This document shows positions 1,666 through 9,199 of a stretch of 32,788 nt of DNA, piece by piece. The position numbers were made by a program, and so were the translations under genes. The notes under the pieces are model-generated. The model saw only the letters and a program-made list of their open reading frames with translations, was not told the DNA's origin and did no database searches. Source of the stretch: a virus; IMG/VR virus record IMGVR_UViG_3300043420_000293, positions 1 through 32,788 of that record. One strand, 5' to 3'. How positions within the stretch are numbered: position 1 is the stretch's first letter; the number at the start of each line of letters is the position of its first letter.

Positions 1666-2337
1666 TCACTCCGCAGCTGTCGCAGTGATGCGGTGGGCAA
1701 CACCCAGTGCTGCAAGCTGGTCACGGTCCACAAACACTTCTGTTTCTACGGGTGCTGTCTTGTTAACACGCGCTTCCTTGACCTCGTGGTATTTATCCAT
1801 AAACTCTTGCGGCACATACAACTCCAGCTCTGGCATCTCAGACAGTGCGGCATTCAGCGAAGTCTTGGTCGACATGAACGCCACGATTTGACGCTCGACG
1901 TCGTGATACTGCTGGCGCAGCTCGTCTCGCTGCCGCTTGCGCTTGTCCTCTTCGGCCAACCACTGGCGCAGGGCAGTGGACTGGTGGCGGAAATACACAG
2001 ACACGTCGTCGTAGTAACTGCTTGGTTTGCAGGGAAATACGAGTCGGTCGTCGTTACGCATTGAGATGCTAGACGCCATGATCCGGTCGTTGTGCTGGTC
2101 GAAGAAAACAACACGGCAATGGTCGCTTGTGTAACACCACTCTTGTGGCATCGCATCGCGAAGCTCTGGTTTCAGCTCCCATGCAGCAGCCTCGATTGCC
2201 TTACGCACTTCGTCGTGGATGGGTGTGCCCGGCTCAATGCGCTCAGATGCGTGCATCTCTTCTGCCTTTTGGCGCATGCGTGCGATCTTCTGTTTGATGC
2301 CGTCGATCAGTTTGTCAGTTCTGCGTACGTAGGCCAC
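1666..2337 (-). CDS. Hypothetical phage protein with coiled-coil segments
   Basis: 223 aa. The start is GTG, preceded at normal distance by AGGAGA, and the reading frame is MAYVRRTDKLIDGIKQKI. An N-terminal helical region (residues 1-60) is followed by a central mixed region with RVVFFDQHNDRIMAS, then a charged coiled coil (EEDKRKRQRDELRQQYHDVERQ) near residues 125-150. It lies downstream of the VWA gene in the same leftward operon, so a link to that machinery is possible. No known family is recognised. Confidence 0.7.
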   Translation of the reverse strand: MAYVRRTDKLIDGIKQKIARMRQKAEEMHASERIEPGTPIHDEVRKAIEAAAWELKPELRDAMPQEWCYTSDHCRVVFFDQHNDRIMASSISMRNDDRLVFPCKPSSYYDDVSVYFRHQSTALRQWLAEEDKRKRQRDELRQQYHDVERQIVAFMSTKTSLNAALSEMPELELYVPQEFMDKYHEVKEARVNKTAPVETEVFVDRDQLAALGVAHRITATAAE

Positions 2338-2348
2338 GGTGTGTCTCC

Positions 2349-2927
2349 TCAGTGTGCAAAGGTAAATGTGATGGTTTCGCCGGTCTTAATGCTGTCGACG
2401 AGGCGGCTGACGGCTTCTTTCTCGCGGACTTCCGAGGCCTTCAGGTATGTGTGAATGAACTCACGCTTCTCGTCGTAGGTCATCGAGTTGTTCATCGGGA
2501 TATACTTGGGCGTCTCGCCGCGCTCGATGGCCTCAAGCGCGCGCACCTCGTGGCTTCGATGCCAAGCATACCGGTTCTCATAGGCTCCAGTGGCTTGCGC
2601 CATGCGCAGCCATGCGGCGGTATATGCCAGCAACTCGTCGAGCTTGTGCGGCAGCACCTCATCCACGGTGACGTAGTTTTTCCAGTGTGAGATTGTGTTG
2701 ACGTGGTGCCCGACACTCTTCGCGAGGTGCTCGACGATGGACCCAGTTTCCCAGCCGCAGGCAGCGACGCCCTTCTCCAGCGAGGAAGTGATGATGTTGC
2801 GCTTCCGACTGGACCACTTGGAGGTATCCAGTTCAACAGTGACACGCGTGACTGCTTTGTCTTTGGTCAGCTCGTTTGCTGACATCACATAGAGACGCTC
2901 TCTGGTCCCGTGGTTTTGTAGTGCCAT
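2349..2927 (-). CDS. Hypothetical phage protein
   Basis: 192 aa, MALQNHGTRERLYVMSAN at the start. AAGGAGA precedes the ATG. A segment around residues 60-85 (IVEHLAKSVGHHVNTISHW) has the spacing of a helix-turn-helix and could be DNA-binding; this is only a visual impression. The rest is helical and charged. It follows the 2939-3631 gene by 11 bases and precedes 1666-2337 by a similar gap, so it belongs to one transcription unit. Function unknown. Confidence 0.7.
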   Translation of the reverse strand: MALQNHGTRERLYVMSANELTKDKAVTRVTVELDTSKWSSRKRNIITSSLEKGVAACGWETGSIVEHLAKSVGHHVNTISHWKNYVTVDEVLPHKLDELLAYTAAWLRMAQATGAYENRYAWHRSHEVRALEAIERGETPKYIPMNNSMTYDEKREFIHTYLKASEVREKEAVSRLVDSIKTGETITFTFAH

Positions 2928-2938
2928 GGTCGGTCTCC

Positions 2939-3631
2939 TTACTTGATGTAGAGGTATTCGTGTTTGGTCTCGGCGCGCGGGAAGGCGAAGCCGTTGGTTG
3001 CCACGGTGCGCATACTGGCCTCATCTGCACACACGTAAGCACATAGTTCCTCGACTGTTTTCTCAATCCAGTCGGGCTGTGCCGTTAGCTTGTCGGAGTG
3101 CCACGCTGGGTGCAGCCCTTGGATACGCGCCGCAGCAGTCACGGCGGTGCGCACCTCGTCTAATTTGGCGGCAAGGTCTTTCTTCACAGACCTATCGGGC
3201 ATGCTCACTGTGATCTCAGCCAGTGCGATAGGAAGGCGCGAGTGCCCAGTCCACACAGCCGCAGCGTACTGGAGATGCTTGCCGAGATACTGGAGCTTGT
3301 CGGTCTTGATGCCCCAGCGTCCGTTGACTTTTATGGCAACGCGCTGCTCGTGGTCGACGGCAAGTATCTGCTGCCCGCCTTGCGTAACCCACGCAGTCTT
3401 GACCTCTTCAGTGCATTCCTTGTCGAGGTATAGCTGCGGGCACCAACGTGTGTCCGACGTGGACACCAACTGTAGACCGTAGCGGTCATAGTGCTTGCGC
3501 TGGTCAGGCTCGGGGCTTCGCGTGAGGATAACCTCGCCGGTCTCGAACTCCACAAACGGGCCGTGGTTGCTGTAGAAGCACCGGTAGCTATCCCAGTGCT
3601 TGTTGGTGTGGTTGAACTCGAACTTCTTCAT
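2939..3631 (-). CDS. Hypothetical phage protein next to VWA gene
   Basis: 230 aa, starting MKKFEFNHTNKHWDSYRCF. The start at 3631 forms an ATGA overlap with the stop of the VWA gene, so the longer frame running into that gene was rejected. The N-terminal half is rich in aromatic residues (Y, W, H); the middle has HSRLPIALAEITVSM and then a helical DLAAKLDEVRTAVTAAARI segment. Translational coupling to the VWA/metallopeptidase gene suggests a shared process, but no domain is recognised. Confidence 0.7.
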   Translation of the reverse strand: MKKFEFNHTNKHWDSYRCFYSNHGPFVEFETGEVILTRSPEPDQRKHYDRYGLQLVSTSDTRWCPQLYLDKECTEEVKTAWVTQGGQQILAVDHEQRVAIKVNGRWGIKTDKLQYLGKHLQYAAAVWTGHSRLPIALAEITVSMPDRSVKKDLAAKLDEVRTAVTAAARIQGLHPAWHSDKLTAQPDWIEKTVEELCAYVCADEASMRTVATNGFAFPRAETKHEYLYIK

Positions 3632-4803
3632 GCCGCGTCCTTCTCGAACTTGATGACTTCGCCCCACGGGAAGGCGGTGCCGCTGGTTGTGAGCCAAACG
3701 GTGTCGTGCTGACTGGTGAAGCTGTTCTGGTCTCCGTGACCGTCAGTCAGATAGACAACGACCTCTGGTTCGATGTTGTTGTCGTCGATGTAGTCGAACA
3801 CCGGCTTGAACGACGTGCCGCCACCGCCGTGGGCTACGAGGCGCACGGGATACTCATCGGGGGTGAACTCGTCGACGTGCTGGACCTTGGAGTCGCAGTA
3901 GATGACCGTCACCGCCTCGGGGTTGCAGGTCTCAAGGATACGGTTGACGTGGCCGCCGAACTTGTCGAGTTCCGGCTGGTCGATGGAGCCTGACGTGTCG
4001 ACGCCGATCACCACGGTGCCCATCTTGGGTTTGTAGTCAGTGCCGGGGATGTAGATGTTGCGTGCGATGAACCGACGGTTGGGGCGGTTCCAGCTGTAGC
4101 CATCCTTGATCTTGGCAACCATGCGGCGCTCAAGGATTTCGTGCCAAGGGGTTGGCACATGGACAAGCTCGTCGACCATGCGCTGCAACGAACCGGGCAT
4201 CTTGCCTACAGCCTTGGCAGCCTTGGCGGACTGGATCGCCTCGATCTTGGCTTGGGCCTCCAGTGCGTGCACTTGGCTCTCATCCAGCGGCTTGCCGTTC
4301 TCGTCGACTGGATCGCCGATGTCGTTGCCGATGCCACCCGGTCCCTGACCGTTGCCGTTGTCGTCCTCGTCGTAGAGTTCCTCGGCTGCGTAGTTGCGGG
4401 CGTCCCGCATCTGGATGCCACCCTCGATGAAGTCGCCGACCTTGGCGTCGATCAAAGTGTCGTTGATGACCTTGTCAGCTGCGATGTTCCACGCCTTGGG
4501 GTCACGGTGTCCGCGGCGCAAGCCATGGGCCAGCATGTAGTGCATAGCCTCATGGGCCAGCAGGAACATGACCTGACGGACAGACAGCGGGCCGTTGTCT
4601 TTACCACCAGTCTCGATGAAGGCGGGGTTGATATACATCTGCCCTGTGGCGGCCATGGCCGCAGTGGGCACCGTGTCGGTGTAGATGATGGGGCGGCGTG
4701 ATGCCGCCGTGCCGAAGAACGGATGGTCCAAGATCAGCAGGGACTTGGCCTTGGAGACCTTGCGCTGCACCTCGGCAAGATTAACAGATAGCACTGTTGT
4801 CAT
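3628..4803 (-). CDS. Metallopeptidase-like/VWA domain protein (DUF2201 type)
   Basis: 391 aa. The N-terminal domain carries an HEAMH zinc-peptidase motif (residues 84-88) and a WNIAADKVIND segment, as in the metallopeptidase-like N-terminal half of the DUF2201 family. A Gly/Asp-rich linker follows (about 145-175). The C-terminal von Willebrand A domain has an intact MIDAS: DTSGS (D269, S271, S273), T330 in GGGGTSF and D354 in YLTDG. Such proteins usually pair with MoxR-type AAA+ ATPases, and one lies upstream in the same operon (7120-8133). I chose the ATG at 4803, with GTGAGGACC upstream, over the GTG at 4815. The substrate is unknown; a role in remodelling or cleaving host or phage complexes is inferred. 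Confidence 0.9.
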   Translation of the reverse strand: MTTVLSVNLAEVQRKVSKAKSLLILDHPFFGTAASRRPIIYTDTVPTAAMAATGQMYINPAFIETGGKDNGPLSVRQVMFLLAHEAMHYMLAHGLRRGHRDPKAWNIAADKVINDTLIDAKVGDFIEGGIQMRDARNYAAEELYDEDDNGNGQGPGGIGNDIGDPVDENGKPLDESQVHALEAQAKIEAIQSAKAAKAVGKMPGSLQRMVDELVHVPTPWHEILERRMVAKIKDGYSWNRPNRRFIARNIYIPGTDYKPKMGTVVIGVDTSGSIDQPELDKFGGHVNRILETCNPEAVTVIYCDSKVQHVDEFTPDEYPVRLVAHGGGGTSFKPVFDYIDDNNIEPEVVVYLTDGHGDQNSFTSQHDTVWLTTSGTAFPWGEVIKFEKDAA

Positions 4804-5047
4804 GTTGGTCCTCACTAGATGTAGTGTTTTGGTTGATCGCCACGAGCGCGGCGGTCTTCAGGTCTGTTAGCGGTTTCATAACAATGGTCTCGCCGAAGCA
4901 GTCGGCACACAAATCCCAGTCGTCGCTTTCGGACAGCTCGAAATACCACCGCTGTTTATACTTATCCCAGTAGGCATACGCCCCAACGCTCACGTTCTCG
5001 GAGCCACAGTCGCGGCAGACCCACGTGAGAGGGTTTTCCTTGGACAT
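4781..5047 (-). CDS. Zinc-ribbon-like protein, paralogue A
   Basis: 88 aa. A CRDC pair near the N-terminus and a CADC pair near the middle suggest a zinc ribbon, with a W-D-x-x-K-Q-x-W-x-F strand region between. It is clearly paralogous to the next gene upstream (5047-5280): both share the CxxC spacing, the aromatic block and a TD.K.AAL.AI.QN C-terminal pattern. The start ATG overlaps the previous stop as TGATG. The 3' end overlaps the VWA gene and contains its ribosome-binding site, so the two are probably translationally coupled. Confidence 0.8.
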   Translation of the reverse strand: MSKENPLTWVCRDCGSENVSVGAYAYWDKYKQRWYFELSESDDWDLCADCFGETIVMKPLTDLKTAALVAINQNTTSSEDQHDNSAIC

Positions 5048-5280
5048 CACACCACCTCATTCTGTCTGATCGCCGCGAGTGCGGCGGATTTAACGTCAGT
5101 TATGGGAACGAACTCGCCGCAGACGTACCCTAAGCAATCACCGCAGTAGTCGTCTGCTCCGTCATTTATGGAGAAGTCCCATGTTTGTTTCTCCTCATCC
5201 CACCATGCGGTGGCATTGACAGACAACTCGGTGCCGCCGCAGTGCGGGCACACGAGCCGCTCGGGGATTTTTTCATCCAT
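5047..5280 (-). CDS. Zinc-ribbon-like protein, paralogue B
   Basis: 77 aa, MDEKIPERLVCPHCGG at the start. It has two CxxC pairs (CPHC and CGDC) with a WWDEEKQTWDF block between them, matching the neighbouring paralogue. The start is ATG at 5280 in a GTG-TGA-TG junction with the upstream gene, the same junction that joins it to its own downstream paralogue. It may be an adaptor or regulatory subunit for the ATPase/VWA cluster. That role is inferred only from position. Confidence 0.8.
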   Translation of the reverse strand: MDEKIPERLVCPHCGGTELSVNATAWWDEEKQTWDFSINDGADDYCGDCLGYVCGEFVPITDVKSAALAAIRQNEVV

Positions 5281-6446
5281 CACACCAACCCTGCCATCTG
5301 GGTCATCAGGTCGCTGATCTGCGTGGCTGCCTTCTTGCGAACGTCGGGCATGGAGCGCAGCACGTCCTTGTTGTTGGCGTAGGTCGTGGCCAGAGATTTA
5401 AGTTCAGCAATCTTGTCTGTGATAGATGGGTCATCTGACAGGTTCACACGGCCCATGCGGTCAGCCACCTCCACGATGTTGTCGATCAGGCTGTCGCGGA
5501 AGATCGCACCGTCGGCACCGATAGGCACGTTCAGTTTCTCCACGGCGGATTTCATGGGGGCGATCATCTCTGTGATGACGTGCTTGGCGGCTGCATCCTC
5601 GGCGTCTTCCAGTTGCTTCTGGAGTGAGGCTTTCTCCTCATCGCTAAGACCGAAGCGCGGGTCGAAATGGCTCGCCTGCGGGATCGGCATGTAACGAACG
5701 TCGATGGCAAACCTTCCACGGATGTCGTCGACACTTGGGTAGTCTGATGGATTGGCAAGGTTGGGTTTACCCTTGGCCGCAGCGATGGCAGCGAGACGAT
5801 CAAGGTCAGCTTGGACCTCATCCTCCCAGTGGGCAGCAAGATCGTCGGCGGCGTCTAGTGCCTCGTCGATACGACGGCGAAGCCCCGAAGAGAACTCAGT
5901 GTGGTGCATAATGTTCAGCATACGCACACCAGTTGCCCACGGCACGGTGTTGTCATTGACGAAAGTACGAACCTCGCCGAACTTGCTCAGGGTGCGCCGC
6001 ACGCGGTTGTCCCTGCCCTCAAACAGGTGCTTGTTCACGTTGCCAGCGCCGTACTGGCGCGTTTCTTCCTCGTCCCGCTTGTATGGTGAGTACATGCTGC
6101 GCTTCAGCTGCACCAGCACGGCCTTCTCGTCGAGACCCTTAACCTTGATAGCCTTGCGCATCAGAGGTGCAGCCGCCTCGGAAACATGTGTCCACGTGTC
6201 AGCAGATTGATCCTCGTCGACGTCGCTCAGCGAAATTTCGTCGAGCGCAGCGACGGACTGGTACATATCGTGCAGACGTTCATGCTCTTGAATGAATGCC
6301 TTCTCATCGTCGTCAGTGATGTCAAGGCGCTCGATGGCGTCCTCGGCGCGGGCAGCGGCTGATGAGTCGTGTTGTTTGGCTGCTTGCTCTTCTTCCCACT
6401 TCTCGATGTTGGCGAAGGCAGCGGCGAGTGTTGCGTTCATGCTCAT
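5280..6446 (-). CDS. 388-aa helical protein of the MoxR/VWA cluster (DUF3150-like?)
   Basis: Mostly alpha-helical and acidic at the N-terminus, with a central region containing LKRSMYSPYKRDEEE, then VRTFVNDNTVPWATGVRMLN, and a FAIDVRYMPIPQASHFD segment near residue 255. The combination of a MoxR ATPase, a protein of this size and a VWA/metallopeptidase protein is a gene trio I recall from other large phages, where the middle protein is often labelled DUF3150. The assignment rests on context and general appearance, not on a verified domain match. AAAGGT lies upstream of the ATG. A role as adaptor or substrate-recognition partner is an inference. Confidence 0.75.
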   Translation of the reverse strand: MSMNATLAAAFANIEKWEEEQAAKQHDSSAAARAEDAIERLDITDDDEKAFIQEHERLHDMYQSVAALDEISLSDVDEDQSADTWTHVSEAAAPLMRKAIKVKGLDEKAVLVQLKRSMYSPYKRDEEETRQYGAGNVNKHLFEGRDNRVRRTLSKFGEVRTFVNDNTVPWATGVRMLNIMHHTEFSSGLRRRIDEALDAADDLAAHWEDEVQADLDRLAAIAAAKGKPNLANPSDYPSVDDIRGRFAIDVRYMPIPQASHFDPRFGLSDEEKASLQKQLEDAEDAAAKHVITEMIAPMKSAVEKLNVPIGADGAIFRDSLIDNIVEVADRMGRVNLSDDPSITDKIAELKSLATTYANNKDVLRSMPDVRKKAATQISDLMTQMAGLV

Positions 6447-6461
6447 GTCAGTTACCTTTCC

Positions 6462-6707
6462 TTAGATGTTGGCTTCAGGGTCGAAGTCGGACGGGAAGTC
6501 CTTCTCATGCAGCACGGGCAACTCACTTGCCCGCAGCCACCGCTGCGCCAGTTGCTTGATACCATCGACAGTCTCGCTGCCGGGGCAGGGGTTACCGTGA
6601 CCTATGAGGCTACCGTCCTCGTCGTAGTAGACCTCACGTAGCTCCACCCAATCGTCGCCACCGTTGCCGGATGGCATGTTCACGAAACGAAATTCCCAAG
6701 TGCTCAT
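6462..6707 (-). CDS. Small acidic hypothetical protein
   Basis: 81 aa, MSTWEFRFVNMPSGNGGDDW at the start. The upstream frame extension was rejected because a clear GTGAGGAC site precedes the ATG at 6707 and the extension overlaps another gene. The sequence reads as beta strands followed by a helix (VDGIKQLAQRWLRAS). It lies between the 57-aa gene and the 388-aa gene in the leftward operon. Family unknown. Confidence 0.7.
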   Translation of the reverse strand: MSTWEFRFVNMPSGNGGDDWVELREVYYDEDGSLIGHGNPCPGSETVDGIKQLAQRWLRASELPVLHEKDFPSDFDPEANI

Positions 6708-6717
6708 GGCAGTGTCC

Positions 6718-6891
6718 TCACTTCGTGTCTTTGCGTGCGATGCGAGTAGCCGCACCTTCCCAGCCGAGATCACCAGCCAAGCCATTGTTAATGATACGGC
6801 CCTTCTCGTAGTCTGCGATGGCCTCGGCCTCGTCGATGTTGTCAGCCTCCACCGTGCGGTAGAGGGTCAGTTCGATGTCATACTTGGGCAT
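6718..6891 (-). CDS. 57-aa small protein
   Basis: This short frame reads MPKYDIELTLYRTVEADNID, then EAEAIADYEKGRII and a GWEGAATRIARKDTK end. It fills the space between its neighbours exactly: its start overlaps the end of the zinc-finger-like gene by 14 bases, and its stop sits in an ACGAAGTGAGGAC sequence that also supplies the ribosome-binding site of the next gene. A very similar ACGAAGTGAGGC sequence ends the ATPase gene. The pattern T...V.A.n..EA...A is common in small phage proteins. Function unknown. Confidence 0.65.
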   Translation of the reverse strand: MPKYDIELTLYRTVEADNIDEAEAIADYEKGRIINNGLAGDLGWEGAATRIARKDTK

Positions 6892-7111
6892 CAGTCATTT
6901 CCTTAGTTGCTATATGAACGCCGCGCTCGCCGTAGTTCTGGCGCAAGTAGTCGGCCCCCTCCTGCACGCTGCCAGTTGAAACAACGTGCCGCTGCTCGAT
7001 CCAGTCGGCGCAGTCGGCGCACAGGGCGTAGCCTGTGTCTTGGTTGGGGTGCTGCATGAGTGGCGGGGTAACCTCGCCACAGCACGCACAGATTTTCCTG
7101 TTAGGTTTCAC
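6878..7111 (-). CDS. Small zinc-finger-like protein (GTG start)
   Basis: 77 aa with two cysteine pairs, CACC near the N-terminus and CADC about 25 residues later (KICACCGE ... ALCADCAD), consistent with a small treble-clef or zinc-ribbon fold. The GTG at 7111 is preferred because GTGAGG sits seven bases upstream; a GTG at 7123 is the alternative. It directly follows the MoxR-type ATPase gene, and it is one of four CxxC...CxxC proteins in this arm. Function unknown. Confidence 0.75.
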   Translation of the reverse strand: MKPNRKICACCGEVTPPLMQHPNQDTGYALCADCADWIEQRHVVSTGSVQEGADYLRQNYGERGVHIATKEMTDAQV

Positions 7112-7119
7112 GGCGTGCC

Positions 7120-8133
7120 TCACTTCGTGTTCATAAAGATGTCTTTGTTGGCGATGGCCCAGCTGATGAAGTCTTTGGTCTGCTGGAGCTTGGGGTGCAG
7201 CCGCAGTGCGTCAGTGACGTAGACCATCTGGAACTCGCGGGGCATGCGAGACACATACTCCATGTCGCGGGTGAAGGCGTCAGGCTCGGTCGTCATGGAC
7301 AGCGCAGTCGCCACTGCGTATTTCACAGCAGGTTCCTCAGGCACCTCGGCACCCTTGGGGTGCATACGGATACTGTCGACGCTGGGCATCTTCACCATCA
7401 TATCGCGGGCAGCAACCCACTCGGCGGCGGCACCCTCGCCGACTTTACCCTCTGCTGCGTATAGATACAGGTCAGTCGGCAGGTCTTGTGGCACCTCGGT
7501 GAACAGCTTGGTCCAGCTGCGCTGTGTGGGGTTGCTACGCCGTGTCGGGTCGTAGTCGTTCAGCAGCTGCGGCCGCAGTCGTAGGAACGCGATGCCCATG
7601 TGATCCACACCGTTGACCATGGCCCACTCACACCAGTCGTCGAGCGATGTCTCTACATCCTCGTGATACAGGCGGTCGTTGAGGTGACCCAGCAGTGGCT
7701 TGGCACCAGCGCGGTCTTGGGCGCGGTTTCCTGTTGCGATGATACGCACCTGCGGATCGAGCTTGAACGTCGGCGTCTCACGCTCAAGGATAAACCCAGC
7801 AGCCCATGTCTGGAGCTGCGTCGATGACTGTGCCAGTTCCTCAAGGATAATGAGGCCGGGGCCAGTGCCCTCGCGGAAGTCGTAGAACATTTTGGTAGGG
7901 TTGAAGATGGTCATGCCGTCGGTGACGCTCGGCACACCAGTGAAGTCCACCACGTCGTGGTTGTTGATGTGTATCACCAGCTGGCGATCGTCTTGGATGC
8001 CTAGGTTGTAGCCAACCTGACGGCAGCCGTCCGACTTACCCATGCCCGGTGCGCCATGCCACATGAACGTGGCCTTGGGCGATTTACGCATGACAGATGT
8101 GGTGAGGTCGATGACTTGGTTGAGAGATGGCAT
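7120..8133 (-). CDS. MoxR-type AAA+ ATPase
   Basis: 337 aa. Walker A is GAPGMGKS (residues 27-34), Walker B lies at LIILEE (94-99) and sensor 1 at IIATGN (131-136). A DVVDFTGVPSV block precedes Walker B, as in MoxR/chelatase-like ATPases that partner VWA proteins, and a RSNPTQRSW segment resembles the sensor 2 region. The usual Walker B Asp-Glu pair is Glu-Glu here (E98, E99). Family members use ATP to load or remodel targets together with a VWA partner, here probably the product of 3628-4803. AAGGGA precedes the ATG. A promoter-like sequence at 8185-8212 would give a leader of about 45 bases. Confidence 0.9.
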   Translation of the reverse strand: MPSLNQVIDLTTSVMRKSPKATFMWHGAPGMGKSDGCRQVGYNLGIQDDRQLVIHINNHDVVDFTGVPSVTDGMTIFNPTKMFYDFREGTGPGLIILEELAQSSTQLQTWAAGFILERETPTFKLDPQVRIIATGNRAQDRAGAKPLLGHLNDRLYHEDVETSLDDWCEWAMVNGVDHMGIAFLRLRPQLLNDYDPTRRSNPTQRSWTKLFTEVPQDLPTDLYLYAAEGKVGEGAAAEWVAARDMMVKMPSVDSIRMHPKGAEVPEEPAVKYAVATALSMTTEPDAFTRDMEYVSRMPREFQMVYVTDALRLHPKLQQTKDFISWAIANKDIFMNTK

Positions 8134-8528: not shown

Positions 8529-9041
8529 TCATGCAGATTGGGTTGCGCGAGCCTTAAACACGTCCAGCCACCAAGGCTTCTGGCGGCGCGTATATGTGAG
8601 GAAGTCGGTTTTTGCGGTGACGTAGTATGTGCGGTAGGCGGTCACCGGATCATCGTGTTTACACGTGTCTGGCATGGCCTGTGCGAATGGTGTTCGCGGC
8701 GCGTGGTTAATGTTGCGCGGTGGCTGCCAGAGTTTGTGTTTAAGTGTGAGCCACGATTTGTGGGTCTTGCCGTACCTGTGCGTGTACTCGTCCGCCAGTG
8801 CAGCGAAGTGAGTGAACAGCCACATGTAATTGCCGGAGGTCTTGGCGGTCCACAGGGTTGATGGGTGGTTGGCGTGGGTGGTTGCGTAGATGCCGTCGGG
8901 TGCGGGGTGATCGGGCGTGGCGTGGATGTGGTGTGCGGACGAGAGCAGCTGTGCTGTCTCCAAGGTCATCTTAACCACGTGCTTGTCGCACTGATACATG
9001 GCTGCGTAGATGGGGTCTACGTCGAGCGCGAAGATGTTCAT
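8529..9041 (-). CDS. Conserved phage protein (CDKHVVKM family)
   Basis: 170 aa, MNIFALDVDPIYAAMYQCDK at the start. The pattern MNIF.LD.DP..AA...CDKHVVKM.LE.AQLL.....H, then HPS..W...S..NY.WL, then a DDPV.AYR.YY segment, is one I recognise from many marine and T4-like phages, where it is annotated as hypothetical. Conserved His, Asp and Cys residues hint at a metal site. AAGGGATC precedes the ATG at 9041, which overlaps the previous stop. Its function has not been established as far as I know. Confidence 0.8.
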   Translation of the reverse strand: MNIFALDVDPIYAAMYQCDKHVVKMTLETAQLLSSAHHIHATPDHPAPDGIYATTHANHPSTLWTAKTSGNYMWLFTHFAALADEYTHRYGKTHKSWLTLKHKLWQPPRNINHAPRTPFAQAMPDTCKHDDPVTAYRTYYVTAKTDFLTYTRRQKPWWLDVFKARATQSA

Positions 9042-9199
9042 TCGATGATCCCTTTCAGCCGAAGGCGTTTCTCCAACTCCAGTCGGGCGTTGCGTTGGCG
9101 CTCGATGCCCTGTGCCATATCGTTGACCATCCAAGCGTAGACGCCAATGAGGCCAATGAGGCTGATCGCGAACGCAGCGCAGAGAGTGAATGTGATCAT
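9038..9199 (-). CDS. 53-aa single-span membrane protein
   Basis: This short frame reads MITFTLCAAFAISLIGLIGV, then YAWMVNDMAQGIERQRNARL and a basic helical tail. One N-terminal transmembrane segment (about residues 3-24) is followed by a charged amphipathic helix. A perfect GGAGGT sits just before the ATG, and the stop overlaps the next ATG. A holin-like or inner-membrane accessory role is possible, but the lysis genes are on the other arm. Confidence 0.7.
   Translation of the reverse strand: MITFTLCAAFAISLIGLIGVYAWMVNDMAQGIERQRNARLELEKRLRLKGIIE

Follow-up and report, generated by a model that had tools for sequence, protein, structure and literature searches.

MoxR-type AAA+ ATPases work together with a VWA domain bearing a metal ion-dependent adhesion site (MIDAS) in NorQ/NorD, RavA/ViaA and Midasin, systems which, to our knowledge, include neither a zincin domain nor a DUF3150 partner. 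NorD of the NorQD system puts a finger of its VWA domain into the pore of the MoxR ring (PMC13036017). The gp24/gp25 pair of phage N4 (phrog_1297/phrog_1314; Schitoviridae and many myoviruses), which belongs to the middle and not the late genes (PMC4193335), consists of an adjacent ATPase and a protein combining PF13203 with PF09967. The same two components, with the same metallopeptidase-vWA fusion, are described in group 2.2 jumbo phages by Iyer et al. (2021), who in the passages dealing with the pair report no third partner and propose a chaperone/peptidase for virion assembly, relying on a MoxR-VWA precedent in Acidianus two-tailed virus (PMC7824862). About 700 sequenced phage records carry the N4-type pair, which is uncharacterised and often labelled “HNH endonuclease”, and virion assembly is the only functional proposal that we found for it. 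Here we describe a leftward operon in IMG/VR virus record IMGVR_UViG_3300043420_000293, a 32,788-base fragment of a marine-type podovirus (hereafter the window, meaning the whole stretch), in which homologues of both proteins are accompanied by a third protein, H. The third partner, the location in a replication operon, the lack of linkage to virion type and the sharing with plasmids lead to a different, testable proposal, namely an AAA+/peptidase machine that works early and has DNA-phase or host proteins as its targets.

The three genes reported in the first-pass annotation of the window, made from the sequence alone, are all present on the minus strand:

7120..8133, minus strand: ATPase, MoxR-like AAA+, 337 amino acids (aa); phrog_1297 and N4 gp24 homologue, with Walker A GAPGMGKS and Walker B IILEEL.
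5280..6446, minus strand: H, 388-aa helical protein, DUF3150-like third partner as judged from BLASTP, AlphaFold2 (AF2) and Foldseek.
3628..4815, minus strand: V, N-terminal zincin-type metallopeptidase (PF13203) and C-terminal VWA domain with MIDAS (PF09967); N4 gp25 homologue.

The motifs listed in that annotation were all recovered, including the intact Walker A, the Glu-Glu Walker B, and, in V, HEAMH and a complete MIDAS with DTSGS; its T330 and D354 are numbered from an ATG, and become T334 and D358 if numbering begins at the GTG start codon, four codons earlier at 4815. The ATPase matches phrog_1297 “ATPase” with an E-value of 1.7e-56 and N4 by tblastn with 1e-23, while V matches PF13203 (2.7e-41) and PF09967 (4.1e-25). 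Three features of the N4 gp24/gp25 type are found here, namely phrog_1297 homology, the PF13203+PF09967 fusion, and genes located close to each other on one strand. Thus, the pair itself, put forward as part of an undescribed system, is already known from N4 and, according to the passages of Iyer et al. cited above, from jumbo phages. N4 differs in having no H, in a Walker B motif with DE and not EE, and in its low identity to the window proteins (~24-28%). The trio with a constant third partner looks undescribed.

No Pfam model, AAA included, was matched by the window ATPase, and its homologues match Pfam AAA_5 and AAA. Its PDB matches are distant, with Midasin in first place and CbbQ/NorQ among them; for Midasin and NorQ/NorD, the resemblance seen here is confined to remote matches of sequence or fold. 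All scored relatives from IMG/VR have the Glu-Glu Walker B, and DE is found in N4, S-TIM5, phage G, a PA5oct-like phage, CRP-7 and Synechococcus phage MinM2, so that Glu-Glu is a clade trait, with a D-to-E replacement throughout the clade; decay of the motif is ruled out by its clade-wide occurrence together with low dN/dS (the ratio of nonsynonymous to synonymous substitution rates). The GN motif, R154 and R205/W207 are invariant. Even distant phages show no variation in the V motifs HExxH...H (conserved as HExxHxxxxH) and DxSxS, in the GGT threonine or in the second Asp, a degree of conservation which supports the view that both the zincin and the MIDAS sites are in use. Single-protein structure prediction, as recommended in the first pass, yielded for V an AF2 model with a mean predicted local distance difference test score (pLDDT) of 79.6, which in Foldseek matches VWA domains, including the Midasin MIDAS domain and NorD. 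PHROG 1314 and RefSeq N4 gp25 (L001 5131-6273) are often annotated as “HNH endonuclease” in spite of their metallopeptidase and VWA domains; the Pfam assignments rule this label out.

IMG/VR searches with V or ATPase yielded 60 loci with relatives, which were surveyed by iterated profiles. All 41 loci in which the three genes could be detected carry them in the order ATPase-H-V on one strand, bearing out the prediction that in other phages, too, a MoxR-like/VWA pair travels with a conserved partner protein, and no surveyed IMG/VR locus has ATPase and V without H; in the 15 loci lacking the ATPase, the stored sequence begins at most ~1.8 kb away from V. Three more scans of viral sequences, using different H or V queries, each brought in one new locus or none. 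The genes are under purifying selection, with median dN/dS of 0.058 for the ATPase, 0.114 for H and 0.077 for V. Downstream of the trio, DNA polymerase A is found on the same strand in every one of the 34 loci holding both, the order being a conserved 223-aa family, the polymerase, and then a PD-(D/E)XK exonuclease, VRR-NUC and SNF2 helicase; portal and terminase (TerL) occupy the opposite strand. Rhizobium phage TM3_14A shares this order for the ATPase, V and DNA polymerase I, and has no H. In the surveyed clade, the ATPase/V pair is locked to its third partner within the replication operon.

Over 50,697 phage records, tblastn found homologues of the ATPase in 661 and of V in 732. Cyanophage MinM2 carries the ATPase, an H annotated as DUF3150, and V, with H in the middle and small open reading frames (ORFs) interspersed, and Planktothrix phages Pag-Yong1 and Pra-JY27 share this arrangement on one strand. 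The trio also occurs on plasmids, although the plasmid set is small: the genes are contiguous and in three-gene order in Rhodovastum, Cupriavidus (pRK1-1) and Paraburkholderia (pPT365), where, unlike in the window, no small ORFs are listed between them, and a Simplicispira plasmid keeps the order with small genes inserted. A Bryobacterales contig has a contiguous trio as well. IncC/IncA plasmids pAR060302 and pRA1 have none of the three genes in their first 50 kb.

H has no convincing family match in Pfam, PHROGs or NCBIfam. The hidden Markov model search for DUF3150 proposed in the first pass gave a divided answer: the Pfam model (PF11348) is matched neither by the window H nor by that of MinM2, and the best plasmid homologue, from Cupriavidus, reaches 22.1 bits with a cut-off of 24.9; yet H is homologous to proteins annotated as DUF3150, with a BLASTP match of 2e-20 to the MinM2 “DUF3150 domain-containing protein” (26% identity over the aligned region) and a Foldseek match of its AF2 model (pLDDT 81.8) to a viral model of that name (E 3.8e-15). 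The best Foldseek match has a template modelling (TM) score of 0.87, normalised by target, and Mycobacteriophage Dylan gives a weak fold match (E 2e-3). In the PDB there was no convincing match by fold (best E 0.07) or by profile (0.016 at best, to a designed repeat protein), which speaks against a known solved fold. By sequence and predicted fold, then, H matches DUF3150-type proteins, though below the level of the Pfam model. DUF3150 is not mentioned in the open-access literature searched. The MinM2 H has homologues on 42 plasmids. On a Pseudomonadales contig (L076 7860-8963), a single ORF matches both H (E 1e-16) and V (partial PF13203 plus PF09967), and may be an H-V fusion or a deletion product.

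The module is not tied to a virion type, because CRP-3 has capsid and portal in common with the window phage and its complete genome contains no ATPase, H or V gene, MinM2 carries the trio and no homologues of the window capsid, portal, terminase or internal protein in ~52 of its 65 kb, and the plasmids that carry the trio have no virion at all. Accordingly, of the two kinds of target suggested in the first pass, a host or a virion complex, the neighbourhood and the plasmids favour an intracellular one, in the DNA phase or the host, and speak against the virion. Our preferred explanation, to which we give a little less than an even chance, is that ATPase, H and V belong to a single functional module, an AAA+ machine that acts early and inside the cell, remodelling and proteolysing DNA-phase or host targets and not the virion. 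The ATPase would form a MoxR-like AAA+ ring, and V would serve as an adaptor-peptidase, its C-terminal MIDAS-bearing VWA domain docking on or into the ring and offering clients to the N-terminal zinc peptidase. H may be a DUF3150-like helical adaptor that selects or holds the client, which, by analogy with NorQ/NorD and Midasin, would be remodelled through ATP hydrolysis and cleaved by the zincin of V. Clients would be intracellular proteins of the DNA phase, such as host proteins or DNA-bound and replication-associated complexes; such targets seem most likely because the module is encoded together with replication genes. A physical complex, peptidase activity, the nature of the client, early timing and the adaptor role of H are all inferred.

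The principal competitor is the proposal that Iyer et al. make for jumbo phages, in which MoxR and the VWA-peptidase would chaperone and process structural proteins as a virion assembly or maturation factor. It has a published precedent in the Acidianus two-tailed virus pair, in the passages of PMC7824862 already cited, and in phage RPP1 the genes for four virion proteins lie close to the gp24/gp25 homologues (PMC4193335). We nevertheless consider it somewhat unlikely for the trio, and favour an intracellular machine because of the replication-gene context, the location on the strand opposite to the structural genes, the occurrence on plasmids and the absence of the trio from CRP-3, whose virion is shared; the virion-unrelated MinM2, which has the trio, argues in the same direction. 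Several observations weigh against an intracellular machine built of three parts. The RPP1 gene placement keeps a structural role open, and some of the trio plasmids could be of phage descent. Moreover, H was not detectable with profile models in the pair-bearing N4, S-TIM5, PA5oct-like phage, phage G, CRP-7 and plasmids pSYSA and pBD2, so that it is apparently not obligatory for the pair everywhere, but a clade- and element-specific partner. The pair on plasmid pSYSA, located at L073 26352-28630, belongs to Synechocystis, a laboratory cyanobacterium open to genetic work.

A more specific form of the intracellular machine would have the trio of lytic phages and plasmids strip proteins off the DNA of the element and cleave them, for instance bound host proteins or DNA-protein crosslinks, in a p97/SPRTN-like manner with H as client selector. 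We regard this version as unlikely; the only hint in its favour, and a thin one, is a weak profile match between the MJ1213 peptidase and the alignment of distant V proteins (E 0.002), which was not seen with the clade alignment.

The three-component logic with MoxR and vWA is shared with the vWA-MoxR-VMAP ternary systems, the architecture of which was described by Kaur et al. (2020; PMC7159879). An inter-element conflict system of this kind, acting in superinfection exclusion or defence against competitors, would account for two core components joined by a third protein, and the trio or the pair lies near toxin-antitoxin genes on plasmids. In those systems, however, the third component is VMAP with other domains, and effectors are variable, with none found here: V is made up of PF13203 and PF09967 alone, without a further effector domain, and H finds no match in Pfam, a comparison that a remote VMAP might escape. 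PADLOC gave no match of note, and conservation of all three genes under purifying selection, in a stable position within the replication operon, further argues against this scenario, which we judge quite improbable. Hardly more convincing is a chaperone that would insert a cofactor or metal into a metalloenzyme of the phage or host, similar to NorQD, CoxDE or CobNST, with a zincin fold that would bind metal without being proteolytic. This is the function of the best understood MoxR/VWA pairs, and small zinc-ribbon-like genes are present in the operon, but no single metalloenzyme gene was found with the trio across phages and plasmids, and HExxH is fully conserved; we rate this possibility as improbable.

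The leftward operon contains V, two paralogous zinc-ribbon-like ORFs, H, small ORFs and the ATPase, with overlaps of a few bases between adjacent genes (7123/7120, 5283/5280 and 5050/5047), a pattern as in translationally coupled operons. The zinc-ribbon-like genes noted there in the first pass (4781-5050 and 5047-5283) are real and mutually paralogous, but they are not constant companions of the trio: the family is present in only 11 of ~55 loci, which rules it out as an obligatory partner. Neither does the operon appear to have a promoter of its own, as had been suggested: sigma-70-like sites in the window are not above chance frequency, which gives no support for a dedicated promoter, and the sole such site on the minus strand, at 9985-9957, lies upstream of two further leftward genes. 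The plus strand encodes terminase, portal, major head protein, internal virion protein and tail fibre; the nearest relatives of the capsid protein are in Rhizobium phage RHph_TM3_14A (43% identity) and in Roseobacter/Pelagibacter/HMO-2011-type phages. At its other end the window stops before any polymerase gene, and its first 1665 bases (1-1665), where DNA polymerase would be expected, hold ORFs on both strands that overlap and have no recognisable domain. The remaining features around the trio are as follows:

8529..9134, minus strand: pyrimidine dimer DNA glycosylase-type protein, PF03013; directly upstream of the ATPase in 9 loci.
6878..7123, minus strand: 81-aa weakly DksA-like zinc-finger protein; among the fetched loci, in the window only.
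6718..6891, minus strand: 57-aa small ORF of the operon, from the ORF list.
6462..6785, minus strand: 107-aa ORF, start uncertain, phrog_21321 (unknown function); among the fetched loci, in the window only.
5047..5283, minus strand: small zinc-ribbon-like protein, 78 aa, optional; family found between H and V.
4781..5050, minus strand: small zinc-ribbon-like protein, 89 aa, paralogue of the preceding one.
2939..3697, minus strand: 252-aa protein downstream of V, family f18, no known domain; 19 loci.
2349..2927, minus strand: 192-aa protein, family f10, no known domain; 27 loci.
1666..2337, minus strand: 223-aa protein, family f3, no known domain; 44 loci.

The last of these, the 223-aa protein, is found downstream of the trio more constantly than any other neighbour, and could possibly represent a fourth component of the module.

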